Part shown: piece by piece, positions 5,715-20,424 of the stretch | How positions within the stretch are numbered: the first letter of the stretch is position 1 | Layout of the letters: each line of letters opens with the position of its first letter | Source: an uncultured Roseovarius sp. | GTDB taxonomy: Bacteria > Pseudomonadota > Alphaproteobacteria > Rhodobacterales > Rhodobacteraceae | Assembly (NCBI GenBank): GCA_951812895.1 | Contig: OX638333.1 | Coordinates: 2,894,001-2,958,000 of the forward strand | Direction of reading: 5' to 3' | DNA length: 64,000 nt | Program-made: the position numbers and the translations under genes | Notes under the pieces: model-generated | What the model was told of the DNA's origin: nothing | The model's database searches: none | Seen by the model: only the letters and a program-made list of their open reading frames with translations

Positions 5715-7025
5715 ATGAAGTGGCATCTTTTGCCGGTCACCGCGATCACATTGATCGCCGCGCTGTTTGAAAGTGCTGAGGCCCGGGAACAGGCCGAATA
5801 CCGGGCACGTCAGGACGTGACCACCTGCATCGCCTCCGACGTAACCAATCTGGTACTGATCGATACCTGCCGTGTTGCCCTGGCGCAGAACGACATCACA
5901 GATTCAGAACGCACAGAACTGCTGCTCGTCCTGGGCCACGCGCTCTACAATGAAAAGCTGCTGGAAGAGGCAGAAGAAACCTTTGCCGCCATGTTGCGCC
6001 ATGCACCTGCAGACCACCGCGCCCTGAACGGGCTGGGCCTTATCTCTGACCTGCGCGAAGATTTCGCCACTGCCCGTGATCACTTTCAACAAGCTCTGGC
6101 CCTGCTGGTAAGTGCCACGGCGCTGACCGGACTGGGCAACAGCCTCTGGCAACTGGGTGAAGCCTCTGAGACAGAAGCCTTAGCCCTGCTGGATGAGGCG
6201 CTGGAAATTGACCCGAAATATGATTGGGCGCTGCGGCAAAAGGCGTGGCTTTTCCTTGACATTGACCGCCCGGCACTGGCGGTTGAGACGTTCACAACCC
6301 TGATCAATGAATTGCCGTACGATCAGAACGCCCGTGCAGGGTTGGTTTCGGGTTACCGCGCCCTTGGTGATCTTGAGAATGCCCTGCTGCATGCCAATCG
6401 CGGCTATGCCGAAAAAACCGAAGATTACTGGTTTCTGACCGAGCGTTCGGAAATATATTTTGAGCTTGGGTTTTTCGAACAGGCCGTTGTGGATGCCGAA
6501 AAACTTATCGAGATAGAGCCGGACTGGAGCGAAAGCTACGTGCTCAAGGCGCGCCCTCTGGCCAAACTTGATCGGCTCGCGGAGGCGGTTCAACTGCTGA
6601 CCGAGGCCGAAGAACACACGGGCCCTGAACCTTACCTGATTTACTGGCATGCAAGTCTGTTGCTAGCTGGTGATCGGTTAGATGCGGCTTTGGCCCAAAT
6701 CGAGAGGCTGACCAATTCAGATGCGGCAGATTTCTATGATTTTGAACTGCTTAGCCTGATCCAGATTGCGCGCAAAGATTATCCTGCAGCGCGGGTTGCG
6801 GTCGACCGTGCACTGCACCTGGGACCGGACGAACCGATGGCGATTTACTTTGATGCCCGGTTGATTCTGTATCAGGACAACACCCCACAAGAGGCAATGG
6901 ATCGTTTCAATGTAGCAGTGGGGGCGGGGCTATCGAAAACCAATGTCGAAGCGTTTGCGAATGAACTGCAAGAAGCGGGGTTTCCTGAAGTGGCAGAAGC
7001 GCTTCGCGCGAAATATTCAGAGTGA
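5715..7025 (+). CDS. Secreted tetratricopeptide-repeat protein
   Basis: 436 residues with an N-terminal signal peptide (about 23 residues ending SAEA), so probably periplasmic. The rest is a series of helical TPR units visible as alternating small and aromatic positions, for example LNGLGLISDLREDFATARDH and the ALALLDEALEIDPKYDWAL segment. There is no catalytic motif. TPR proteins of this sort are scaffolds; the partner is unknown. It is followed by about 240 nt before the SulP gene. I cannot assign a specific function. Confidence 0.75.
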   Translation: MKWHLLPVTAITLIAALFESAEAREQAEYRARQDVTTCIASDVTNLVLIDTCRVALAQNDITDSERTELLLVLGHALYNEKLLEEAEETFAAMLRHAPADHRALNGLGLISDLREDFATARDHFQQALALLVSATALTGLGNSLWQLGEASETEALALLDEALEIDPKYDWALRQKAWLFLDIDRPALAVETFTTLINELPYDQNARAGLVSGYRALGDLENALLHANRGYAEKTEDYWFLTERSEIYFELGFFEQAVVDAEKLIEIEPDWSESYVLKARPLAKLDRLAEAVQLLTEAEEHTGPEPYLIYWHASLLLAGDRLDAALAQIERLTNSDAADFYDFELLSLIQIARKDYPAARVAVDRALHLGPDEPMAIYFDARLILYQDNTPQEAMDRFNVAVGAGLSKTNVEAFANELQEAGFPEVAEALRAKYSE

Positions 7026-7262
7026 GACCAGCGGTGAAGTGAATGGTTAACATTCCAGTCGGAAAACAATACTGACCTGTTGCTGTCTTTCGAGCAACAT
7101 CTCCCGCGGCTTGGTGCCGTAATGCAGCCAAACGCATAGAAGCTTTCACAATTGAGCAATGGTCAATTGCCCGCGGGCAGGCTATGGCAGGGCTTCGCGC
7201 TACAGGAACTATCAGGAAAAACACCGGTGAAAAACTTGCTGAGCTCGGGCGTCGTCGCCCGC

Positions 7263-8861
7263 ATGGATCCCCTGTCTCTCAAATCGGCCGATGGGGGTGG
7301 ACTAAACGCAACCCGTCTGCGGATCGAGTTGCTCTCGGGTCTCACCGTCGCGCTGGCGCTTGTGCCAGAGGCGGTTGCCTTTGCCTTCGTGGCTGGTGTG
7401 CATCCGTTGGTGGGGCTCTATGCCGCGTTCCTGGTCGGCTTGATCACGGCCCTGATCGGCGGTCGGCCCGGGATGATATCGGGTGCAACCGGTGCGTTGG
7501 CGGTGGTGATGGTCGCTCTGGTGGCCCAGCACGGTGTTGAATACCTCTTTGCCACGGTGGTCCTGATGGGGCTCATACAAATCACCGCAGGCGCATTGAA
7601 ATGGGGTAAGTTCATTCGATTGGTTCCCCATCCGGTGATGCTCGGTTTTGTTAACGGTCTGGCCATCGTGATCTTTCTGGCGCAGCTGGGACAGTTCAAA
7701 GTGCCCGGCAGCGCGGTGCAGTCTGATCATGGCATGACCGGCGGCGAATGGCTCGCCGGACCAGAACTTTTGACCATGCTGGGGCTTGTGGCACTGACAA
7801 TGGCCATCGTCTGGGGCCTTCCCCGTGTCACACGCGTAATCCCGGCGCCGCTGGCAGGGATCGCCGTGGTTGCAGCGCTGGTAATCGGTCTTGGGTTGGA
7901 GGTGCCGCGTGTGGGCGATCTGGCATCCATTCAGGGCGGCCTGCCTGCATTCCACATCCCCACCGTTCCGCTCAGTTTCGAAACGTTTCAGATCATCCTG
8001 CCCTATGCGATCATCCTTGCGGCGATTGGTTTGATTGAAAGCCTGCTGACTCTGAACCTTGTGGCCGAAATGACCGGCCGTCGCGGGGGGGCGTCACAGG
8101 AATGTATCGCGCAGGGTATCGCCAATACCGTGACCGGGTTCTTTGGCGGCATGGGAGGTTGTGCGATGATCGGCCAATCAATGATCAACGTAAAATCCGG
8201 CGGGCGCACCCGGATCGCCGGTGTCGCGGCGGCTGTATTTCTGCTGATCTTTATTCTGTTTGCGGCACCATTGATTGAACAAATCCCCCTTGCCGCGTTG
8301 GTAGGTGTGATGTTCATGGTGGTGATCGGTACTTTCGCGTGGAACTCACTTACAATCCTGCGAAAGGTACCGCTAAGTGATGCACTAGTGATTGTGCTGG
8401 TGACTGTTGTGACGGTGAAATATGACCTCGCAATCGCTGTTGTCGTCGGTGTGATCGTCTCGGCATTGGTCTATTCGTGGAACAACGCCACGCGTATTCA
8501 CGCCATCACCCGCGATTCCGTCACCGAAACAGGTGCCAAAGTCTACGAGATTCAGGGGCCGTTGTTCTTTGGCTCTGCCGAAGGGTTTTCTGAGCTGTTC
8601 GACGTGGCCGGAGACCCTGAGAACGTGATCGTAGACTTCGCCGAAAGCCGCGTCGTGGACCAGTCCGCCCTGCAGGCGATCGAAGCGGTTGCAGGTAAAT
8701 ACGAAGCTGCAGGCAAGCAGATCAAACTGCGCCATCTGAGCCGCGACTGCCACAAGCTGTTAACCAAGGCCGGTCACCTTCTGGTCGATAGCGACGATGA
8801 TCCAGACTACGAAATTGCAGTCGATTACGGCGTGCGCACCGGTATTCTTGGCGGGCACTGA
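7263..8861 (+). CDS. SulP/SLC26-family anion transporter with STAS domain
   Basis: About 532 residues: a SulP transmembrane domain (residues ~20-400; the first membrane segments include GLTVALALVPEAVAFAFVAG) and a C-terminal STAS domain (~residues 430-520). SulP proteins move sulfate, bicarbonate or related anions across the inner membrane, often with Na+ or H+; the substrate cannot be told from the sequence. The start is uncertain. I use ATG at 7263 (MDPLSLKSADGG) because the preceding in-frame extension back to 7152 looks unlike coding sequence, although no strong ribosome site is seen before 7263. It is convergent with the flavin reductase gene, with a shared hairpin between them. Confidence 0.87.
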   Translation: MDPLSLKSADGGGLNATRLRIELLSGLTVALALVPEAVAFAFVAGVHPLVGLYAAFLVGLITALIGGRPGMISGATGALAVVMVALVAQHGVEYLFATVVLMGLIQITAGALKWGKFIRLVPHPVMLGFVNGLAIVIFLAQLGQFKVPGSAVQSDHGMTGGEWLAGPELLTMLGLVALTMAIVWGLPRVTRVIPAPLAGIAVVAALVIGLGLEVPRVGDLASIQGGLPAFHIPTVPLSFETFQIILPYAIILAAIGLIESLLTLNLVAEMTGRRGGASQECIAQGIANTVTGFFGGMGGCAMIGQSMINVKSGGRTRIAGVAAAVFLLIFILFAAPLIEQIPLAALVGVMFMVVIGTFAWNSLTILRKVPLSDALVIVLVTVVTVKYDLAIAVVVGVIVSALVYSWNNATRIHAITRDSVTETGAKVYEIQGPLFFGSAEGFSELFDVAGDPENVIVDFAESRVVDQSALQAIEAVAGKYEAAGKQIKLRHLSRDCHKLLTKAGHLLVDSDDDPDYEIAVDYGVRTGILGGH

Positions 8862-11096: not shown

Positions 11097-12581
11097 CTAA
11101 CCCGCGTCATCCTTCGTGAAGGCTGACGCATCAATCTCGCACAATTCACCATCCCGCAACACGCCAGCCCGCCGCGCCGTGCCATCTGTATGCGATACAA
11201 TCAGAATCTCGCCTCCCCTGCGGGCAATCTGCTCTGCGCTTTCCTGCATCAGCTTCCCACTCTCACACAAAAACGCATTGCATGTATCAGAACGGTCTTC
11301 CCGTGGCAGGGCACACCCCTCTGCACCGTGGAATAAACAACTTCCTTCAACATGGTTTTCAGGCAGAAAGGACAGGTAATGGTCCACAATCTCATCTGCA
11401 CCGATCCCGATCCGCCGCTGCATGATCCCGGCTAACGTCTGCACCTTTAGATAGGCGTTGTTCTGGGTTCCTTTGTTACAACACTTGCCACGGCACATCG
11501 CGCACAGTGCTGACAGTTCTGCCGATGGTGCTGGCTGTGCTGAATGGGTGGTCGCGGGAGGTTTTTCGGCAAGTGATCGGTCCGCAAGATCATGCAAAAA
11601 CGCCTTGAACTTTGTGACCGTAGCGGGGTCTGTCGGGATAAGGTTTTCCGTTCCGAACGGGGCCAAGAAACCACTTTGCACTTTTGTCGTCCCGGAAATG
11701 TCAGAGGAATTGTAGGCGTCAATCATCTGCTGCAGCCAGCTGCGGTTCTGCGTCAGCGCCTTGAACGCCGTCGCCAGCGTGAACACCATTACCAACTGTC
11801 TGAACTCAGCTTGGTCAATCTGATCCGTGCCCTGTCCCCACCCCTCAACCAGCGCAGTGACAATCTCTTCGATCTGTCCAGGGAATTGTTTCGCCAGAAC
11901 CCGCGCGGTCAGCAGAATGTCCCACCCCATGGGTTTCTTCATCGCGGCTTCGAAATCAAATCCGACAAGACGACCATCGCTCTGGCGAATAAAATTACTC
12001 AGATGCGCGTCATTTTTCGAAATCACTTGCTTGAGGATCGGCAACTTGGACAGCACCTCACGATGTTGCTCGCGCTCTTCCTTGGTCAGGACTTCGTCAT
12101 AACGTGAAAGATATTCGAACCAATTGCTCTTGACCTCAGCTGACGGCATGCGGTTTGAAAACTCTGCAAACCACTGGCCCAAGTCACACGCGACCGAAAC
12201 AACGTTTCGCTCATCAATTTCCTTCAACTGGGTCGACCCCGCGACAAATCCCGATACGAAAAAATGGTTTTTCTGGCTGACCGCCATCAATTCCGGCACC
12301 AACCCAGTTCCCTTTAGCGCACCCAGAATACTGACTTCACGGTCGATACTCTGACGCGATTGCGTCAACGCCGGATTGAACGCCTTTATGACACCAGAGC
12401 GATTTCCAACGTTCATATGAATGGTCAGACACCTTTCATTAAGTTGCAAAGTCTTGACCTGAACAGATCCCGAAACATCGTCTGACCCAGCCACAGCTTT
12501 CGCGGCGATAACACCATGCAGACGCAACCACGTCTCTAACGAAAACTCATCTGCGTGCTCTGCCGTGCCGGGTGTGGTCAT
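11097..12581 (-). CDS. Kinase-like (APH-fold) domain fused to a CxxC-x3-CC cysteine-cluster domain
   Basis: 494 residues. Residues ~20-260 look like an aminoglycoside-phosphotransferase/protein-kinase-like fold: NDAHLSNF (190-197; Asp191 and Asn196 at catalytic-loop positions) followed by GFDFE (207-211; Asp209 at the metal-binding position). After a Pro/Ala-rich linker, residues ~355-480 carry C360, C363, C367, C368, then C415, C423, C434 and C439, a pattern like the YkgJ/CxxCxxCC family thought to bind zinc or an iron-sulfur cluster. I know no standard protein with this pairing. The start at 12581 is preferred to an upstream TTG at 12614. A TGTACA array lies in the upstream region. Substrate unknown. 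Confidence 0.7.
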   Translation of the reverse strand: MTTPGTAEHADEFSLETWLRLHGVIAAKAVAGSDDVSGSVQVKTLQLNERCLTIHMNVGNRSGVIKAFNPALTQSRQSIDREVSILGALKGTGLVPELMAVSQKNHFFVSGFVAGSTQLKEIDERNVVSVACDLGQWFAEFSNRMPSAEVKSNWFEYLSRYDEVLTKEEREQHREVLSKLPILKQVISKNDAHLSNFIRQSDGRLVGFDFEAAMKKPMGWDILLTARVLAKQFPGQIEEIVTALVEGWGQGTDQIDQAEFRQLVMVFTLATAFKALTQNRSWLQQMIDAYNSSDISGTTKVQSGFLAPFGTENLIPTDPATVTKFKAFLHDLADRSLAEKPPATTHSAQPAPSAELSALCAMCRGKCCNKGTQNNAYLKVQTLAGIMQRRIGIGADEIVDHYLSFLPENHVEGSCLFHGAEGCALPREDRSDTCNAFLCESGKLMQESAEQIARRGGEILIVSHTDGTARRAGVLRDGELCEIDASAFTKDDAG

Positions 12582-12706
12582 CCGCTGCTCTCGACCTCGA
12601 TCTTGTTTGGTCAAACTATAGAACAGCGCACCGTTAAATTTCCACGACTATTACGTTCGGTGCTGACCGTCACTCAGCCCTTCAAAAAGGGGTGAAGTGT
12701 GCAAGA

Positions 12707-12776
12707 TGTACACAAATTCGGTGAACGGGTCCGATCTTTGTACAAATCACATGTACAAATTGTACAATTTGTACAA
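12707..12776. promoter_or_regulatory. Array of five TGTACA palindromes
   Basis: TGTACA occurs at 12707, 12739, 12752, 12761 and 12770. The last three are exactly 9 nt apart, and 12751-12776 forms an almost perfect palindrome centred on the middle copy. It lies between the end of the Rieske-ThDP gene (12782) and the start of the leftward kinase-fusion gene (12581), so it could be an operator array for that gene. A related 9-nt-spaced array is at 33093-33128. No coding role is apparent. Confidence 0.5.
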
Positions 12777-12781
12777 AATTT

Positions 12782-14764
12782 CTAGACCAGTTCCGCGTCT
12801 GTCATTACCTCAACAAGGGCCGGGCCTTCGATGTCCAATGCGTCCTGAATTGCCCGTTCCAAATCTCCGGCTTCTGAAACTTTCTCTCCGTGACCCCCAC
12901 AAAGACGCGCAAAGGCAGAGAAGGGTGGGTTAACCAGATTGGTTTCCCAAACCGGCCATTCCCCGGCGCGCTGTTCTTTTGAGATTTTACCTAACTCACT
13001 GTTATGCAACAGTATATGGGTGATATCCATGCCGTATTTTACGGCTGTGGTGAACTCCATCGGATACTGACCAAAGCCCCCATCGCCCGAAATTGATATC
13101 ACCTTTCGACCCCTGAATGCCTCGAAATCCTGCGTCGCGGCCCAGGCGCCCATCGCGGCCGGAAAGCCAAACCCGATAGAGCCTAAATATCCAGACATCA
13201 GAACACGTTGCGTGCCTTTGGTCTCTAGATACCGGCCAAAGGAATAGGTGTTGTTGCCCACATCCACGGCAAAGATTGCGTCCTCCGGGGCCAGTTTGCC
13301 CAAAACATCAAACACTGCAAAAGAATGAACACCCCTCCCCAGATCCTCGGCCAGCCGCCGATGCTTTTCTTCCCGCCAGATTTTCCAGCGATCTGTCAGC
13401 TCTGAAACCTGATCTTCGGCTTCGGGTCCGGGGTTGATCTGATCCGTTGCAAGTTTACAAAATTCACCAATCTCTCCCCAGATCGGTAGCTTGACTTTGC
13501 TGAATTTTCCAAGCTGCATACGGTCGTAATCAACCTGGATCATATTGCGCTTGGGCGAAATCCCCGTGTGATTTGAAAAGCTTGCACCAAGCACAATCAT
13601 TGCATCGGCCAGCGTCATGAACCAGCTCGCTATCGGTGTCCCCGACCGCCCCAGAACGCCACCGGCATTTGGATGATCGTCCGGGATCAGGCCCTTGGCC
13701 TTGAACGTGGTCAGAACCGGCGCGCCCAGCCGTTCGGCAAGTTCGATGATCTGATCGCGTGATTCCTGCGCCCCGTGGCCGACAACAATGACCGGACGTT
13801 TCGCATTGTTTAACATATCCACCGCTGCTGCGACTTCGTCATCAGCTGGTCTGATTCTATGCCCGGCGACCCGGCCTGCGGGTGTTGCGGCTTTTTTGTT
13901 GGATGGAATGGTCTGAACATCATCCGGGAAGATCAGATGCGCGACATCCTGTTCAACAATCGCATTTTTGCATGCCAGTGACATCAGCTCTGCATGCTTA
14001 GATGTGCTCAAAACCGGCTGCGAGAATTTCGCAACTGCCTGAAAAGCTGAAGCAAGGTCAATGTCCTGGAACGCACCGGGACCAAAAACCTGGGTCTGCA
14101 CTTGACCGGTCAGCGCCAGAACGGGCGCCCGATCCACCTTGGCATCCCACAAGCCCGTCAGCAGGTTTGTCGCCCCTGGACCCGCAATCGTCAAGCACGC
14201 CGCTGGTGTCCCTGTCAGCTTACCATAAGCCGAGGCCGCGAACGCAGCCCCACCTTCATGCCGAATACCGTAATAGTGCAGTTCCTCGCGCCCTACCGCG
14301 CGCCTGATTGCATCTGAAAGTCCAAGGTTTGAGTGACCAACCATGCCAAACACGCTGCGAACGCCCCAGTTTGTCATGGTTTCAACCATCACATCGGTTA
14401 CTGTGCGTTCATGCGGTGGCTCTGCTTCGAGACCGACAAAAATCTCATCATCCCGGACCTCGATAGGGTACATCTTTTGCCCGTGATCCTTTACGCCACC
14501 CCCGGGTGGTTTGCCGGTCAGCGGGTCGAAATCCCAGCCATGCCAGGGGCATCTAATCCAGCAACGGTCTTCGACGCCTTTCTCGATCGAGCCTTCGCCC
14601 AACGGTCCGCGTTGATGCGGACAATGGTTGTCCATCGCAGCCCACTGCCCGTCAAAATGCACCAGACAGATCGATGTTGTGCGTGCGGTTACCGTTTTGA
14701 CTCTGCCTTCCGGAAGATCACCAACATGACCAACTGAAATCCACTCAAGTTCTTGTTCAGGCAT
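12782..14764 (-). CDS. Rieske [2Fe-2S] domain fused to a ThDP-dependent enzyme (acetolactate synthase/pyruvate oxidase type)
   Basis: 660 residues. Residues ~8-115 are a Rieske domain with Cys48-x-His50 and Cys72-x-x-His75. From ~122 onward it is a complete ThDP enzyme of the PoxB/IlvB fold: the activating Glu in RHEGGAAFAASAYG, a central domain (VIVVGHGAQESRD), and the metal/ThDP motif beginning SGDGGFGQYPMEFTTA with Asn in LLHNSELG. The Rieske domain may pass electrons from a 2-oxoacid-type decarboxylation to a partner; the substrate is unknown. The start at 14764 has GGGAG 6 nt upstream and is preferred over a Met at 14848. It is the last gene of the Rieske operon, 43 nt after the preceding gene. 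Both domains are certain, the role is not. Confidence 0.88.
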   Translation of the reverse strand: MPEQELEWISVGHVGDLPEGRVKTVTARTTSICLVHFDGQWAAMDNHCPHQRGPLGEGSIEKGVEDRCWIRCPWHGWDFDPLTGKPPGGGVKDHGQKMYPIEVRDDEIFVGLEAEPPHERTVTDVMVETMTNWGVRSVFGMVGHSNLGLSDAIRRAVGREELHYYGIRHEGGAAFAASAYGKLTGTPAACLTIAGPGATNLLTGLWDAKVDRAPVLALTGQVQTQVFGPGAFQDIDLASAFQAVAKFSQPVLSTSKHAELMSLACKNAIVEQDVAHLIFPDDVQTIPSNKKAATPAGRVAGHRIRPADDEVAAAVDMLNNAKRPVIVVGHGAQESRDQIIELAERLGAPVLTTFKAKGLIPDDHPNAGGVLGRSGTPIASWFMTLADAMIVLGASFSNHTGISPKRNMIQVDYDRMQLGKFSKVKLPIWGEIGEFCKLATDQINPGPEAEDQVSELTDRWKIWREEKHRRLAEDLGRGVHSFAVFDVLGKLAPEDAIFAVDVGNNTYSFGRYLETKGTQRVLMSGYLGSIGFGFPAAMGAWAATQDFEAFRGRKVISISGDGGFGQYPMEFTTAVKYGMDITHILLHNSELGKISKEQRAGEWPVWETNLVNPPFSAFARLCGGHGEKVSEAGDLERAIQDALDIEGPALVEVMTDAELV

Positions 14765-14807
14765 GATTTTCTCCCGTGATATCGCCAGTTTACTCTTAGG
14801 TAACGTG

Positions 14808-15074
14808 CTACTTCTTACGCTGGTTGATCTTGCCATAAGCCTTTTCAAGCCAAGTCAGAATGACGAAGAAGCCGACCACCCAGATCAGCAGCTCAAAAGG
14901 TGCGAAATCGGTTCCGCGCAGCCACCGGGCCAATAGACCACCCTGCGGGCGAAGTTCGGAAACCCCGAACAAACCCTCGCGTGACCAGAAACTGAAAATC
15001 CAGAACCGCGAGAGGTAAAACAGGACAAGCGCCGCGATTGCTGTGATGCTCATCCAAATGATCCGTCTGGTCAT
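14808..15074 (-). CDS. Small membrane protein of the Rieske operon
   Basis: 88 residues with two predicted membrane segments (about residues 5-27 and 58-76) joined by a loop rich in Gly, Arg and Trp, and a basic C-terminus (KINQRKK). No family is recognised. Its start overlaps the stop of the upstream gene by 4 nt (ATGA), so it is translationally coupled and is probably a subunit of the same membrane complex. Confidence 0.7.
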   Translation of the reverse strand: MTRRIIWMSITAIAALVLFYLSRFWIFSFWSREGLFGVSELRPQGGLLARWLRGTDFAPFELLIWVVGFFVILTWLEKAYGKINQRKK

Positions 15075-15847
15075 GGCAGCACCTCAATCGTATCTGCATC
15101 CATTTTCAGAACCAGAATATCACCGTGGCGTTCAATCTCTCCTTCGAGAGAGATAAACTGGGCCACGTAATCATAGGCGGCTTTGGGTAGCGGGCCGCCA
15201 TCTTTGTCTACGACCATGAGGTATTCTGTTCCCTCAATCGGTTGACTCGAAACAAACACCGGGGGGATATCACCAATCAGGCAAAGGTTGGCACAGGCCT
15301 TGTGTGCGAGGCCGCGACCTGGTCGCATTGCGCCAGCCAGGCATTTGCCGTCGCAGATCTCTCCAGCAATGCGCCAGCGCCCCAAGGGTTCTGATACCGG
15401 GGGCTCCCAAATCATTTCGGTTCCGTCCCCTTCGGCCATCCGCAGTCCCTGTCGTCCGCCGCGCAATTGCAGCATGTTCAGATCTCCGCGTTCCAGCAAA
15501 ACGCCGGAGGCCACGATTTGCTGGCCGGAAAACCCAGATGTGCGCGCCATCACACCCATCTTGCCTCCCGCCGCCAGCATGAGTGTTTCGCCCGCTTTGA
15601 TCCGGTCGTTCCCTTCGGTAACGTGCAACAACGGATAGGGCAGGTTTTCAATCACACCGGTGACCGTCTGGCGCCCATAGTCAAACCGGAACGCCCCGTT
15701 GCCGGGATCGTCCTGTGTGGACCCGATCAAAAGGCCAAAGACCGTCAGGCAAGCCACCAGTAATATCCCTGCACTTAACAAGAACTTGCGCAGCTTCTTC
15801 GGGACCTTGAAATAACCAACGAAAAACGGGGTGGTATCAGTCTTCAT
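15071..15847 (-). CDS. Membrane-anchored protein of unknown function in the Rieske operon
   Basis: 258 residues. One membrane segment near residues 22-43 (FLLSAGILLVACLTVFGLLIG) anchors a large, probably periplasmic domain. That domain has four closely grouped cysteines around residues 166-190 (CDGKCLAG and KACANLCLIG), which could form disulfides or bind a cofactor. I do not recognise the family. Four-nt overlaps with both neighbours show tight co-expression with the ferric-reductase/Rieske protein and the small membrane protein, so it may be an assembly factor or a subunit of the complex. Confidence 0.75.
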   Translation of the reverse strand: MKTDTTPFFVGYFKVPKKLRKFLLSAGILLVACLTVFGLLIGSTQDDPGNGAFRFDYGRQTVTGVIENLPYPLLHVTEGNDRIKAGETLMLAAGGKMGVMARTSGFSGQQIVASGVLLERGDLNMLQLRGGRQGLRMAEGDGTEMIWEPPVSEPLGRWRIAGEICDGKCLAGAMRPGRGLAHKACANLCLIGDIPPVFVSSQPIEGTEYLMVVDKDGGPLPKAAYDYVAQFISLEGEIERHGDILVLKMDADTIEVLP

Positions 15848-16893
15848 GACGGAATCTCCACAGGTTCAACATAGGTGCCGGGTGGGTTCGCATCTGGGTC
15901 AACCATGATCACCCCATCTTGTATCGCCAGCCGATAGGTTGGGATCTTTTCGGTGAAGGGTGCCGGGGATTGACCGTCCGTCAACCTGTACTGATAGCCA
16001 TGCCAAGGACAGGTCACCAGGCATCGTATGACTTTCCCCTCACCCAACGGACCATTTTGGTGCGAGCAGGCATTGGATATCGCCGATAGTTTGCCTTCAA
16101 GCCGGAACACGGCCACACGATCACCATTGGGCAACACTGCAATTCGCGCACGCGCTTCGACGATGTCATCAGGCTTGCAAACAGTGACCCAGCCTTCGGT
16201 GTTGACTGCTCCCGCCGGGTCGCCTGCTTTGCGTTCATGCAGGACGGCCAATACGTGCAGGCCAGCGACTACAATAGCTGAGACAAGGAAAATCGCCGTG
16301 AAAACATGGTTTTGCTGGTCCTGTAAAATCCCAAGGCTGACATGTGCAACCACGGAGATGTACGCAATGTAGATCAAATAGTGGACACGCTTCCACAACG
16401 GAGCGCCCAGAAACCGGAGCCAGAAATCATGGCTTGTTGCCGCCAAGACAAGCAAGCAGATCAGAGCGACTATACCGAAGATTTCAAAAGGAAAGCCTGC
16501 GAATTGACCGAAACTGGTGTTCGAAAAAAGCAACGCCTCGTACTTATTCGACGATGAAAAGGCCCAATACCAGTTCAGGATATACCCGGCATGTGTCATC
16601 GCCACGCAGGCGGTCATCACCCCAAAATGCCGTCGGTTATAGAGTAATGCCATAAAGCGCCGGTCCAACCGCGCCAGAGGGCCGATGGCCAGAATGATGC
16701 TGAGCATCAGGAATGCGCATGCGCCGAACGCGCGCGCATTGTGCACCTGCGGATTAATTGGCCGCTCATGGCTTAGCACTTCTGGGCTGACATGAAGAAA
16801 GAACCACAAAAACCCAACGACCCCGGCCAGCATAAAGGCGTCGTAGTAGTATTTGTTATTGTTCCACTGAACGGGGATGTATTTGACGCTCAT
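15844..16893 (-). CDS. Ferric-reductase-like transmembrane protein fused to a Rieske [2Fe-2S] domain
   Basis: 349 residues. Residues ~15-220 hold about six membrane segments with spaced histidines (including His101, His171 and His184), typical of ferric-reductase-like heme b membrane proteins such as MsrQ. Residues ~235-340 are a Rieske domain with Cys276-x-His278 and Cys295-x-x-His298. Such an arrangement could carry electrons between a cytoplasmic iron-sulfur donor and membrane heme or quinone; the direction is not visible. It overlaps both neighbouring genes by 4 nt in a coupled operon. The heme ligands are inferred from family knowledge. Confidence 0.85.
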   Translation of the reverse strand: MSVKYIPVQWNNNKYYYDAFMLAGVVGFLWFFLHVSPEVLSHERPINPQVHNARAFGACAFLMLSIILAIGPLARLDRRFMALLYNRRHFGVMTACVAMTHAGYILNWYWAFSSSNKYEALLFSNTSFGQFAGFPFEIFGIVALICLLVLAATSHDFWLRFLGAPLWKRVHYLIYIAYISVVAHVSLGILQDQQNHVFTAIFLVSAIVVAGLHVLAVLHERKAGDPAGAVNTEGWVTVCKPDDIVEARARIAVLPNGDRVAVFRLEGKLSAISNACSHQNGPLGEGKVIRCLVTCPWHGYQYRLTDGQSPAPFTEKIPTYRLAIQDGVIMVDPDANPPGTYVEPVEIPS

Positions 16894-17267
16894 TCGCTGG
16901 CCTCCACGGGTTCAGATAGTTTTTGCGGAACATAGTCGGCCGGCCATTGTTGGCGCACAGAAAGGCCGATCGAGGTGATGCCCACCACGGCGATAAACAT
17001 GCCCAGAGCAATCACCTTATGTGCCGCACGTACGGGTTTGTATCTGGACTCCGGATCGTAACTGCCGGATTCGAGCGACCACCACCGCCAAAGGACAATC
17101 GGCCAGATCAGCAGAATGCCTGGGATCAGAAGCGGCCGGAATACATAGGCGCCCCGTGCATCTTCGTCGATCCGGTCAATTCCGACGACCAGAAACAAAG
17201 CAGCCACAACGCCGCCGATGATCAACCAATATTGCGTAATCGCAAAAAGCAGCTCGGCTGAGTTCAT
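16890..17267 (-). CDS. Small three-span membrane protein of the Rieske operon
   Basis: 125 residues with three predicted membrane segments (about residues 9-30, 43-62 and 84-103). No family is recognised. ATG at 17267 is chosen over an upstream start at 17318 because GGAGG lies 6 nt before it and its ATG overlaps the stop of the Rieske-glutamate synthase gene by 4 nt. The stop in turn overlaps the start of the ferric-reductase/Rieske gene. A structural or quinone-binding subunit of the same complex is plausible but unproven. Confidence 0.75.
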   Translation of the reverse strand: MNSAELLFAITQYWLIIGGVVAALFLVVGIDRIDEDARGAYVFRPLLIPGILLIWPIVLWRWWSLESGSYDPESRYKPVRAAHKVIALGMFIAVVGITSIGLSVRQQWPADYVPQKLSEPVEASE

Positions 17268-18874
17268 TGTATGCCTCCATAGGCCACACCGGCCAACTCG
17301 GACATGTCCTTTTTCCACGTGGTCAGATCATCGTTGTTGAACTTCGACAGATGATCATGTCCGCAGGCGCGTGCCATAACCTGCATGAGCTCCACCGATG
17401 CGCTAAAGAAATTGGCCAATCTCTCGGCCGATTTCTCGACGATAATACGGCTCACCAGATGCGGTTTCTGCGTGGCGATACCTACCGGGCAGTTGTTGGT
17501 GTGACAAGCCCGCATGGCGATGCAACCGATCGCCTGCATCGCTGAATTCGAAACCGCAATCGCATCTGCACCCATCGCCATTGCCTTGATGAAATCTGCA
17601 GGCTTGCGCAGGCCTCCGGTGATCACCAGTGAGACATCAGAACGCCCCAAGCGGTCAAGATGCGCCCGAGCACGGGCGAGTGCTGGAATTGTAGGGACAG
17701 AGATGTTGTCACGGAAAATAATCGGTGCTGCACCTGTGCCGCCTCCGCGTCCGTCCAGGATTATGTAATCCACACCAACCGCCAATGCTGCATCAATATC
17801 TTTTTCGATATGCTGGGCCGAAAGCTTGTAACCGATGGGAATACCACCCGTCCGATCACGCACCTCATCGGCAAATTCTTTGATCTGAGAAACTTCTGTC
17901 CATTCCGGGAACCGAGCCGGCGACACAGCCCCCTGACCGGGTTCAAGGCCGCGGACCTCTGCTATCTTACCTTTGACTTTATTGCCGGGCAGGTGACCGC
18001 CTGTCCCTGTCTTGGCCCCTTGCCCGCCTTTAAAATGAAACGCCTGAACTTTGTCCAGCTTGTCCCAGGAAAACCCGAACCGTGCTGATGCAAGTTCGTA
18101 AAAGTATCGGCTGTTGGCCTCCTGCTCTTCGGGAAGCATTCCACCTTCGCCAGAACAGATACCGGTGCCAGCCATTTCGGCGCCGATTGCCAGCGACAGC
18201 TTGGCCGGTTCCGACAATGCCCCATAGCTCATGTCTGAAACAAACAATGGTATATCGAGCTGGAGTGGTTTTTGTGCATTCGGGCCGATTACGATATCAG
18301 TGCCCACCTCGTCATCATCCAACAACGGGACTTTGTGCAACTGTGCCGTCAAAATCTGAATATCGTCCCAATCCGGCAGTTGAGTGCGTGAAACTCCCAT
18401 TGATTCCACGACACCGTGGTGACCTGTCTGCTTCAGTCCTTGCTTGGCATATCGTTGAATGAGGCCATTGTAGGGTTCTTCTTCGGTTCCGTGGCCGGTG
18501 TCTGCGTAGAGCCCTTGATAGGCTTTGCGGTTGAAGGGTTGAGGGTTTTCCAGGGCCCATGCGGTAATTTCATCCGCATCAACCCAAACCTCATCAGCTT
18601 CTACCCATGCTTTGAACTTGGGAAGCACCTCGGAATTGTTATAGGCCGAGACACCGCTATCCAGTCGGTAATCCCAATAATGCACACCACAGATCAGGTT
18701 CTTGCCACGAACAAACCCGTCAGACATAAGAGCGCCACGGTGTAAGCATCGGCCATAGAATACAGAAACATCATCGTCGATCCGAACAACGACCAGGTCG
18801 ACCGTATCAACAAGCGCATATTCAGGTTTTCGATCTTCAAGATCGTCTAGCTTCGCAACCGATACTTTGTTCAT
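17264..18874 (-). CDS. Rieske [2Fe-2S] domain fused to an FMN/[3Fe-4S] glutamate-synthase domain
   Basis: 536 residues. The N-terminal ~105 residues form a Rieske domain (Cys43-x-His45, Cys62-x-x-His65). Residues ~150-520 are the FMN-binding synthase domain of GltB-type proteins, with GGQGAKTGTGGHLPG at ~283-297, an FMN-region DGRGGGTGAAP at 374-384, and the [3Fe-4S] cysteines Cys451, Cys457 and Cys462 in the family spacing. The class II glutaminase domain of GltB is absent, so ammonia would have to come from elsewhere or the reaction differs (compare the synthase subunit of N-methylglutamate synthase). It is the first gene of the coupled five-gene run, with a 359-nt gap upstream. Confidence 0.88.
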   Translation of the reverse strand: MNKVSVAKLDDLEDRKPEYALVDTVDLVVVRIDDDVSVFYGRCLHRGALMSDGFVRGKNLICGVHYWDYRLDSGVSAYNNSEVLPKFKAWVEADEVWVDADEITAWALENPQPFNRKAYQGLYADTGHGTEEEPYNGLIQRYAKQGLKQTGHHGVVESMGVSRTQLPDWDDIQILTAQLHKVPLLDDDEVGTDIVIGPNAQKPLQLDIPLFVSDMSYGALSEPAKLSLAIGAEMAGTGICSGEGGMLPEEQEANSRYFYELASARFGFSWDKLDKVQAFHFKGGQGAKTGTGGHLPGNKVKGKIAEVRGLEPGQGAVSPARFPEWTEVSQIKEFADEVRDRTGGIPIGYKLSAQHIEKDIDAALAVGVDYIILDGRGGGTGAAPIIFRDNISVPTIPALARARAHLDRLGRSDVSLVITGGLRKPADFIKAMAMGADAIAVSNSAMQAIGCIAMRACHTNNCPVGIATQKPHLVSRIIVEKSAERLANFFSASVELMQVMARACGHDHLSKFNNDDLTTWKKDMSELAGVAYGGIQ

Positions 18875-19233
18875 GTCGTCTCCCGTTTATTCCCTGCTCC
18901 AGATCGCAAAATGTATCAACCGATCTGATGTAGCTACTTTAGGCAGCATACATAAAAACACGCGTTGGGTATGGATGTTCCCGGCCGGCGTTTTGAACTG
19001 AGCTACAGATACAACGGTACGAACGAATTAATTATAACGATCCTGTGAGAAACGGCGAAGTTCTGAAACGAACGAGCTGCTGTGGTCACAACTTGGTCAG
19101 GGCTTTGAAATATTGCGTAGAATGCGGTCAATCACGTGAAAGCTGCTTTGCAAATTTGTCTGCGTTGAAAGTGAAATTGGCTTACAAAATCCCTTCATGC
19201 GAACCATGTAGGCAACGCGGTTATTTCCGCAAT
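18875..19233. other. Intergenic region upstream of the Rieske operon
   Basis: 359 nt with no convincing gene. It probably carries the promoter of the leftward Rieske operon, or a leader within a longer transcript that starts upstream of the GcvT-like gene. A partial dyad around ACCGATCTGATG and an AT-rich stretch near 19025-19040 are visible, but no promoter could be assigned with confidence. Confidence 0.4.
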
Positions 19234-20424
19234 TTATCCTACAGGTCGCACCGGGATATCGACAAGTTCACCACGCGGTATTCGTGCTGATTTGTCGTAG
19301 AAAGGCAGCTCGACCAACTCCGCTTTTTGTTCCGAACCATCTCGGCACCCAACGGTAACTGGTGTACCTGAGCCGAATTGTGAATGATCCAAGAGTGCAT
19401 AACCGATGCCATATTCCAGGTAGGGCGACATGGCCCCGGCTGTAACATGTCCAATTGACTTGCCATCAACCCTGACACTGGCCGAGATCAGGGGTTCGCC
19501 GCCAAGGCACTTGATCCCGTACAATCGTGTCTCTCTTGAAGCAAATGCCAGCGCCGATTTGCCGATAAAGTCGCCCTTTGTTTCATCAACGAAGCGGCCA
19601 AGCCCGACGTCATATGGGGTTGTTGTCGCGTCGAAATCCGAACCGGCATTCAGAATTCCGGCCTCAATCCGGCGAATGTTCATCGCATCCAGCCCAAAGA
19701 TATCCATGCCGTAGGGTTTGCCCGCAGCGTGAAGGTGAGCCCACAACGCTGTGGCATCGTGATGGGGTTCCGTATAAAACTCCCAGCCTAATTCGTTGGT
19801 GTATCCCGTACGTGTGATCGTTACCTGTTGCCCACCGAATGCGACGTTTGCCGCCGCGAAGTAGGTGAATTGTTCGGGTAACCCGTGATCGCTGGCAGCC
19901 TCCAGAATATTCAGTGCTGCGGGCCCCTGGATCTGAGAAACAAAGACATCGGGGTCGGAAATCACGACATCAAGGCCAATCGTATGAGCACGCGCCCAGC
20001 TGTAAAAATCTCCATCCGCCTGTGCATACCAGAATTTGTCAGCCGCAAGCCGTAGAAGAATACCGTCGACCAACAGCCCGCCATCCTCGTAGCAGGCCAG
20101 CCCATATGCACAGCGACCGACTCTTACTTTCTTGATGTCTTTTGTGAATAGCAGGTCAAGCAGCTTTTCAGCATCAGGGCCTTCAAACTGGAGACAATAT
20201 TCACCGGTATTCAGTACCGCTGCCTTTTGCCGTAACAGCCAGTACCCGTCTTCTGTTGAATGATCATCAAAGCAACAAGCCATAAGACGGCGGTTGTAGA
20301 CGCAGTAGTGTGGACCTTTGGCACGCTCTATCTCAAAATAGGGATGTCGGGTCAGGGCATAATCCCAGCCAGCCCCGGCCATACTGGTCACAAGATCCCT
20401 GGTTTTTCCGTCGCTCGACCGCAT
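19234..20424 (-). CDS. GcvT/DmdA-like folate-dependent aminomethyltransferase-family protein
   Basis: 396 residues of the glycine-cleavage T-protein family, which move a methyl or methylene group onto tetrahydrofolate. Seen are CYEDGGLLVDGI, the GYTNELGWEFY strand, the central LDAMNIRRIEAGI helix and the DFIGKSAL segment, all at family-standard spacing. It could be a demethylase acting on a methylated N, O or S compound (as in DmdA, LigM or sarcosine/dimethylglycine enzymes) rather than the true glycine-cleavage protein, because no gcvH or gcvP is nearby. AAAGGGGG precedes the ATG. It lies upstream of the Rieske operon on the same strand, suggesting one-carbon chemistry in that pathway; this link is inference. 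Confidence 0.8.
   Translation of the reverse strand: MRSSDGKTRDLVTSMAGAGWDYALTRHPYFEIERAKGPHYCVYNRRLMACCFDDHSTEDGYWLLRQKAAVLNTGEYCLQFEGPDAEKLLDLLFTKDIKKVRVGRCAYGLACYEDGGLLVDGILLRLAADKFWYAQADGDFYSWARAHTIGLDVVISDPDVFVSQIQGPAALNILEAASDHGLPEQFTYFAAANVAFGGQQVTITRTGYTNELGWEFYTEPHHDATALWAHLHAAGKPYGMDIFGLDAMNIRRIEAGILNAGSDFDATTTPYDVGLGRFVDETKGDFIGKSALAFASRETRLYGIKCLGGEPLISASVRVDGKSIGHVTAGAMSPYLEYGIGYALLDHSQFGSGTPVTVGCRDGSEQKAELVELPFYDKSARIPRGELVDIPVRPVG

Follow-up and report, generated by a model that had tools for sequence, protein, structure and literature searches.

What joins three unrelated redox proteins that each carry a Rieske [2Fe-2S] domain and lie in one bacterial operon? The question is raised by a 64,000-nucleotide stretch of DNA from an uncultured Roseovarius sp. 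(GenBank assembly GCA_951812895.1, contig OX638333.1, positions 2,894,001 to 2,958,000; hereafter the window), which sits within a single 4.54-Mb contig. A minus-strand run from 18874 to 12782 contains six genes, in reading order GLT, m125, FRD, p258, m88 and ThDP, of which GLT, FRD and ThDP encode the Rieske fusions. Comparison with relatives indicates a redox cassette that is conserved and whose parts can also occur separately. We give even chances to its being a modular electron-transfer system in which cytosolic oxidoreductases with Rieske tags and a membrane-spanning diheme cytochrome b trade electrons.

Architecture of the operon

The six genes are as follows (domains of the three fusions from Pfam).

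GLT, 17264..18874, minus strand: N-terminal Rieske [2Fe-2S] domain and glutamate-synthase-type flavin mononucleotide (FMN) domain with a three-Cys motif, 536 aa
m125, 16890..17267, minus strand: small membrane protein with three hydrophobic stretches, 125 aa
FRD, 15844..16893, minus strand: ferric-reductase-type membrane domain and C-terminal, probably cytoplasmic Rieske domain, 349 aa
p258, 15071..15847, minus strand: one transmembrane (TM) segment followed by a large, probably periplasmic domain, 258 aa
m88, 14808..15074, minus strand: small membrane protein with two hydrophobic stretches, 88 aa
ThDP, 12782..14764, minus strand: N-terminal Rieske domain and pyruvate-oxidase-type thiamine diphosphate (ThDP) enzyme, 660 aa

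The initial annotation, made from the sequence without database searches, had placed the three fusions at these coordinates and in this strand and order, and Pfam domains above cut-off bear it out: PF00355 and PF01645 in GLT, PF01794 and PF00355 in FRD, and PF00355, PF02776, PF00205 and PF02775 (TPP_enzyme N/M/C) in ThDP. Its gene spacing was exact, with 4-nt overlaps at the four junctions of the first five genes (17264-17267, 16890-16893, 15844-15847 and 15071-15074) and a ThDP start 43 nt past the end of m88, and the three proteins between the fusions that it called uncharacterised (m125, p258 and m88) indeed have no Pfam family above cut-off. Rieske domains (PF00355, E <= 0.001) occur at 13 places genome-wide, three of which are inside these six genes. 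Because this arrangement is moreover kept in relatives, the clustering goes beyond chance. A recent duplication of one Rieske domain was rejected, as blast matches among the three kinds are only 25-46% identical. Rieske oxygenase activity was rejected as well, since no oxygenase domain follows the Rieske domain in the three fusions; Pfam lists no catalytic oxygenase domain for any of them at E <= 0.1.

FRD combines a ferric-reductase membrane domain, shared with MsrQ/YedZ and the NOX and FRE members of its superfamily, with a Rieske domain in place of the FAD- and NADPH-binding domains of the NOX/FRE long forms, which Pfam did not detect. It scores 40.3 bits against the MsrQ/YedZ NCBIfam model, below the cut-off of 130. 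The two His pairs H89/H101 and H171/H184 are present in 77/77 aligned rows, as are the four Rieske ligands. In the available text of PMC3591440, four His in TM3 and TM5 define the two-heme form and are ascribed to long FRD forms and a few short ones, in contrast to three His in YedZ. FRD has this four-His set, with TM3, which falls below the threshold of the hydropathy script, placed by its His pair. The same text lists a ferric-reductase architecture with a Rieske domain as model M4 (2013; the legend of this model mentions an FMN domain as well), so that the earlier statement that these catalytic families normally lack a Rieske domain needs qualification for FRD; it contains no mention that we found of the partners p258, m125 and m88. 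Hydropathy and positively charged loops put two parts inside, the Rieske domain of FRD and the N-terminus of p258, and the remainder of p258 outside.

p258 carries an invariant C165xxxC169, M174, H182 and C185xxxC189 in 76/76 rows, and a comparison with PDB sequences gave no confident relative (best E = 0.02). Among the 80 FRD loci described below, an m125 match precedes FRD in all 80 and an m88 match follows p258 in 54.

The ThDP protein has E. coli PoxB as its nearest solved relative (3eya; 279 bits by profile, 218 by single sequence). The two align over nearly the full length of ThDP (3eya/3ey9) and have RHE, FQ and GDG...N motifs in common. ThDP differs in its N-terminal Rieske domain, in a Lys (GKISKEQ, invariant in 15 aligned rows) at a PoxB Phe position, and in its C-terminus: at the end of the alignment, ThDP residue 656 of 660 is paired with PoxB residue 528 of 572, and ThDP, ending at about PoxB residue 530, thus lacks the PoxB C-terminal peptide. 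In PoxB, this peptide makes the contact with membrane and quinone. The best pyruvate-oxidase NCBIfam score is 379.3 bits (cut-off 742), all such models having cut-offs of at least 637. ThDP also scores 272 bits against acetolactate synthase (TIGR00118, cut-off 538). A role as the cell's acetolactate synthase was rejected, because a separate match above that cut-off lies elsewhere in the window genome; such matches are also found in G423, G524 and G377. In two small genomes (L176 and L178) IlvD is encoded directly before ThDP. Branched-chain synthesis, which this adjacency could suggest, was rejected because both genomes encode an acetolactate synthase over cut-off elsewhere.

GLT resembles ferredoxin-dependent glutamate synthase and GltB in its FMN/3Fe-4S domain with three Cys, and differs in having its own Rieske domain and no detected glutaminase (GATase) domain; besides Rieske and Glu_synthase, Pfam gives only weak overlapping matches. 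Its score against the GltB model (128 bits) is below the cut-off of 1047. The three-Cys 3Fe-4S-type motif CIAMRACHTNNC (C451/C457/C462) is retained in 44-45/45 rows, the single exception (L113) being a called gene that misses that stretch. GLT also keeps K/K/R residues, with a Gln to His change, which we take to be the 2-oxoglutarate ligands of ferredoxin-GOGAT.

That the Rieske parts might be degenerate in relatives had been named as a possible refutation of their role as electron relays. Their ligands are intact: in addition to the FRD ligands above, GLT keeps C43/H45 in 45/45 aligned rows and C62/H65 in 44/45, the one exception being a called gene without that stretch, and ThDP keeps its ligands in 42/45, the other three rows being non-Rieske ThDP homologues. 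Each of the 71 close relatives of ThDP that were retrieved (66 without duplicates) likewise has the Rieske motif; the 75 retrieved GLT rows represent 69 distinct ones. The Rieske domains thus look functional, as a relay role implies. In the ligand alignments, rows shorter than 60% of the window protein were dropped, and the FRD rows exclude L111, L143, L150 and L163 (4/80 loci, no called FRD gene). Alignment A5 comprises the window and 51 of 52 non-redundant p258 rows, and alignment A1 comprises 21 of 23 family relatives (L051 and L052 left out) and three Rhizobium. Genes of relatives were called by a simple ORF picker, so that their starts are approximate, and some loci are one genome fetched twice (e.g. 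L093/L035, L169/L048 and L165/G436).

Association of the three fusions

Three genome samples and one set of loci were used to follow the fusions. Among 295 genomes of the family, including that of the window, FRD is present in 24, GLT-Rieske in 29 (including three broken or partial copies in G157, G180 and G184) and ThDP in 16. Overlaps are far above expectation for each pair: 16 genomes for FRD and GLT (2.4 expected), 14 for FRD and ThDP (1.3 expected) and 15 for GLT and ThDP (1.6 expected). Co-occurrence, uncorrected for kinship, is thus far above chance, and the linkage within the gene set is real. Whether the fusions always co-occur had been proposed as a check, and they do not: eight of the 24 FRD genomes are without GLT-Rieske and 13 of the 29 GLT-Rieske genomes are without FRD. 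The distribution is patchy, and the one sampled congener of the window organism lacks all three fusions.

Across 289 genomes of the class, again including that of the window, FRD occurs in 15, ThDP in 13 and GLT-Rieske in eight, and four more match the FMN part alone. Both other fusions are present in seven of the eight GLT-Rieske genomes, the window genome among them. In a sample of the phylum, FRD (E <= 1e-40) was found in 5/200 genomes, all five of the window's class.

At locus level, the best 80 of at least 568 FRD relatives in a scan of a genome collection were examined. GLT and ThDP are both near FRD in 34 of these loci, one of them in 17 and neither in 29, with several gene orders; counts vary slightly between two tallies owing to different thresholds. 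The Roseibium aggregatum IAM 12614 locus (L157), for example, reads antiporter, GLT, ThDP, m125, FRD, p258. ThDP accompanies FRD without GLT in eight loci (seven by the stricter count), and five of the genomes concerned have no GLT-Rieske anywhere (E <= 1e-150). More broadly, of 19 genomes whose FRD locus has no GLT, eight encode GLT-Rieske at another place and 11 do not encode it. The reverse separation is also seen: in G001, G125, G126, G171, G240 and G266, GLT and ThDP adjoin each other away from any FRD gene, and FRD is present in another part of the genome in four of these six.

The FRD module has another recurring partner, a non-Rieske ThDP gene that adjoins it or is divergent from it and is associated with TPR and OpgC genes and, often, genes for CoA-transferase (L048/L169, L055-L057, L158, L165 and L184; CoA-transferase absent in L048). 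As no model is over cut-off for it, this partner gives no function.

Exchange of iron-sulfur modules

The initial annotation regarded the Rieske parts as interchangeable relays, and relatives support this in that Fe-S modules are swapped in three different settings. In sister proteins of GLT, which share about 65-70% identity with it in the FMN part, twin CDGSH motifs replace the Rieske domain (15/15 fetched, with Pfam run on one). CDGSH-Glu_synthase fusion proteins are in print (available text of PMC5859297), and they differ from GLT in this module and in their gene neighbours. The twin-CDGSH glutamate-synthase-type proteins in L078-L092 lie, by eye, near LysR, hemerythrin-like, GST-like and sometimes pirin genes.

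ThDP proteins of five of the six class genomes that have ThDP and neither partner fusion at the thresholds used have CDGSH modules ahead of the Rieske domain, a feature absent from the remaining 66 ThDP rows that were retrieved. Pfam, run on two of these proteins, gave CDGSH in both and Fer4_19 in that of L176; a Fer4_19-like stretch was seen by eye in L177 and L178. Extra modules in most partnerless ThDP proteins fit a need of the Rieske-only form for an external partner. Three of these proteins, of which that of L176 was run through Pfam, combine CDGSH, Fer4_19-type and Rieske modules in a single polypeptide:

L176, 8988-11648: ThDP with all three modules
L177, 8990-11605: ThDP with all three modules
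L178, 7557-10190: ThDP with all three modules

The third setting is L191, in which a fusion of Rieske and FMN_red domains (6257-7384) starts 12 nt after the FRD-Rieske gene. p258 was not detected there, and the contig ends about 1 kb past the fusion. When 18 chosen FRD genomes were searched for Rieske-FMN_red, all 18 gave matches, and beyond the Rieske part only the original locus did so.

Plasmid copies and antiporter genes

ThDP-Rieske (E <= 1e-100) is encoded on five plasmid records, four haloarchaeal and one of Mycobacteroides. Full-length GLT-Rieske (E <= 1e-150) is found on three plasmids, all haloarchaeal and also with ThDP, the two genes being 1.4 to 17 kb apart. On one of these plasmids, a cation/H+ antiporter gene lies between them. 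The haloarchaeal plasmid regions (L226, L227, L228 and L229) contain a varying complement of merA, pirin, DsrE, peroxiredoxin and quinol monooxygenase genes.

Antiporter-like genes recur outside the haloarchaea. One adjoins GLT in 23/43 GLT loci, sharing its strand in 22 of them, and 0/37 loci without GLT have one; PF00999 was confirmed on one of these genes. ThDP, FMN_red and antiporter genes are consecutive in L177 and within 7 kb on the Mycobacteroides plasmid (L230), whose FMN_red is 44% identical to that of L177; in Halorarius (L226) ThDP adjoins the antiporter, and in L185 an antiporter also neighbours ThDP or GLT. The antiporters of four relatives fall below the KefB/KefC cut-off and that of every other model, and their best matches are in three branches (K+/H+, CPA1 and CPA2), which suggests repeated recruitment. 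No match was obtained in 57/80 FRD loci, and none of the window operon's neighbouring genes read is an antiporter.

Proposed mechanism and alternatives

In the proposed cassette, FRD would be a cytochrome b that spans the membrane, probably binds two hemes and has a Rieske cluster of its own facing the cytoplasm, partnered by m125, m88 and the putatively periplasmic Cys/His protein p258. ThDP would oxidise a 2-oxo acid and exchange electrons through its Rieske domain with the FRD Rieske cluster. GLT, with predicted FMN and 3Fe-4S cofactors, may carry out amino acid/2-oxo acid chemistry at the FMN, its Rieske domain likewise swapping electrons with that of FRD. Electrons could then cross the membrane via the two hemes to p258 or quinone, in a presumed outward direction, from cytosol to periplasm or quinone. 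Electron exchange between the tags would be the simplest mechanism, since a [2Fe-2S] tag is common to otherwise unrelated redox proteins, one of which is a four-His transmembrane protein. A wider version, which we hold more tentatively and rate below even chances, is that the Rieske domains form a bus: plug-in tags would interconnect unrelated cytosolic oxidoreductases (glutamate-synthase-type, ThDP oxidase and FMN reductase) and, in Alphaproteobacteria, link them to a transmembrane diheme conduit with a new periplasmic Cys/His partner, as an undescribed system whose enzyme pair recurs on haloarchaeal plasmids, one with an antiporter between both genes.

Several observations weigh against the cassette. 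Its mechanism is drawn from comparative evidence throughout. The family overlaps, at p = 3e-13 to 2e-16, ignore phylogeny, and a test of joint gain and loss of GLT and ThDP on the FRD tree yielded eight independent pairs, with 5.2 changing the same way and 0.3 the opposite way (median p 0.06, not significant). By the stricter count, 30/80 FRD loci contain neither GLT nor ThDP, and a third of the family's FRD genomes lack GLT-Rieske, as noted above. ThDP occurs without either partner in six class genomes (FRD E <= 1e-60, GLT-Rieske E <= 1e-150), and the five of these proteins with built-in modules may reflect few evolutionary events. Among plasmids, FRD (E <= 1e-20) was found on five, of Rhizobium only; the three that were opened have FRD near a different ThDP gene. 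Finally, no FRD was present in the haloarchaeal GLT/ThDP stretches read, the chromosomes not having been searched.

It is because these plasmids carry the enzyme pair without a visible FRD that a soluble couple is the strongest rival, albeit one we consider rather unlikely: ThDP would oxidatively decarboxylate a 2-oxo acid, and Rieske-to-Rieske electrons would feed a reductive amination by GLT, with FRD as a substitute donor or acceptor confined to some bacteria. The adjacent GLT-ThDP pairs away from FRD in six genomes, the near implication of GLT by ThDP in the family (15/16), the 3Fe-4S motif and presumed 2-oxoglutarate ligands of GLT, and a small genome (L182) in which the GLT-Rieske gene, as called, overlaps an aminotransferase gene by 1 nt all favour such a couple, while the seven to eight loci with ThDP and FRD but no GLT, and the six class genomes in which ThDP has neither partner, speak against it. 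Slightly less probable, and compatible with the other readings, is a role in stress or ion homeostasis, the Rieske enzymes sensing or detoxifying electrophiles or quinones together with a cation/H+ antiporter. KefF-KefC offers a rough parallel in pairing an FMN reductase with a K+/H+ antiporter, and some relatives here have a flavin enzyme gene near a cation/H+ antiporter gene; GLT and ThDP belong to other families. This role draws on the association of antiporter-like genes with GLT loci alone among the 80, the ThDP/FMN_red/antiporter groups of L177 and the Mycobacteroides plasmid, the adjacency in Halorarius, the apparent recruitment from three branches and the merA, pirin, peroxiredoxin and quinol monooxygenase neighbours on haloarchaeal plasmids. 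It is weakened by the window operon, which has no adjoining antiporter, by the FRD loci without a match and by the absence of any shared regulator seen.

Improbable in our view is that the Rieske domains serve mainly to switch the enzymes, as redox or iron sensors or as parts for assembly, rather than to wire them. The variation of Fe-S modules (Rieske, CDGSH and Fer4_19) on constant catalytic domains would suit such a role. Against it, the Rieske domain of FRD belongs to a membrane protein with four His, for which the simplest function is electron transfer, and the 3Fe-4S and FMN centres predicted for GLT would need an electron partner. The reading of the initial annotation, taken as a pathway for a methylated amine or sulfonium compound that involves folate-dependent demethylation by a GcvT-like protein just upstream, is very improbable. 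The gene (19234-20424) is indeed upstream on the same strand, and its product reaches 205 bits against the TMAO demethylase model (cut-off 1100) and 188 against the DMSP demethylase model (cut-off 410). A gap of 359 nt, however, lies between it and the operon, and the two do not stay together in relatives: the 23 FRD loci of relatives searched yielded one weak GcvT match (24% identity), and a further match (31%) lies about 5 kb from a GLT gene in L075. GcvT was therefore rejected as a member of the system, and since it is not conserved with the set, folate-dependent demethylation is unsupported; nor was support found for a methylated-compound substrate.

None of the known systems compared matches the set as a whole, its single parts belonging to known superfamilies. 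In the open-access literature, subscription papers and preprints being outside its scope, no paper was recognised on GLT-Rieske, ThDP-Rieske or the operon. If the cassette operates as proposed, electron-carrier domains would act as standardised connectors, the same tag opening one membrane conduit to unrelated enzymes, and partnerless enzymes would have a larger part of the relay built into their own polypeptide. The entry points of bacterial electron transport would come to include a ThDP oxidase and a glutamate-synthase-type enzyme, and the m125, p258 and m88 families, which have no Pfam match, would gain a functional setting. The system would offer a testable case in named bacteria such as R. 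aggregatum IAM 12614, and in haloarchaea.

Genomic surroundings

The interval upstream of the operon is listed here with two features downstream of it.

Non-coding leader, 18875..19233, minus strand: between the GcvT-like gene and the operon, with ORFs of at most 81 aa; presumed promoter region
Repeat cluster, 12737-12777: in the gap from the ThDP gene to the gene that follows it
Kinase-like gene, 11097-12614, minus strand: protein with an APH-type kinase domain (Pfam) and a Cys-rich C-terminal CxxCxxxCC

A promoter consensus sought on the minus strand of the leader gave no match. The repeat cluster consists of TGTACA-centred palindromic repeats, in four 9-nt copies (TGTACAAAT-like), and looks like an operator array.

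Transporter genes near the set in relatives (TctABC, TupBCA-like, TRAP and Liv-type, assigned by eye from the sequence) differ between lineages and gave no single substrate. Three roseobacter loci (L107, L108 and L120) have TctA-type genes upstream of the cassette and a tungstate-type ABC transporter (TupBCA-like, by eye) downstream.

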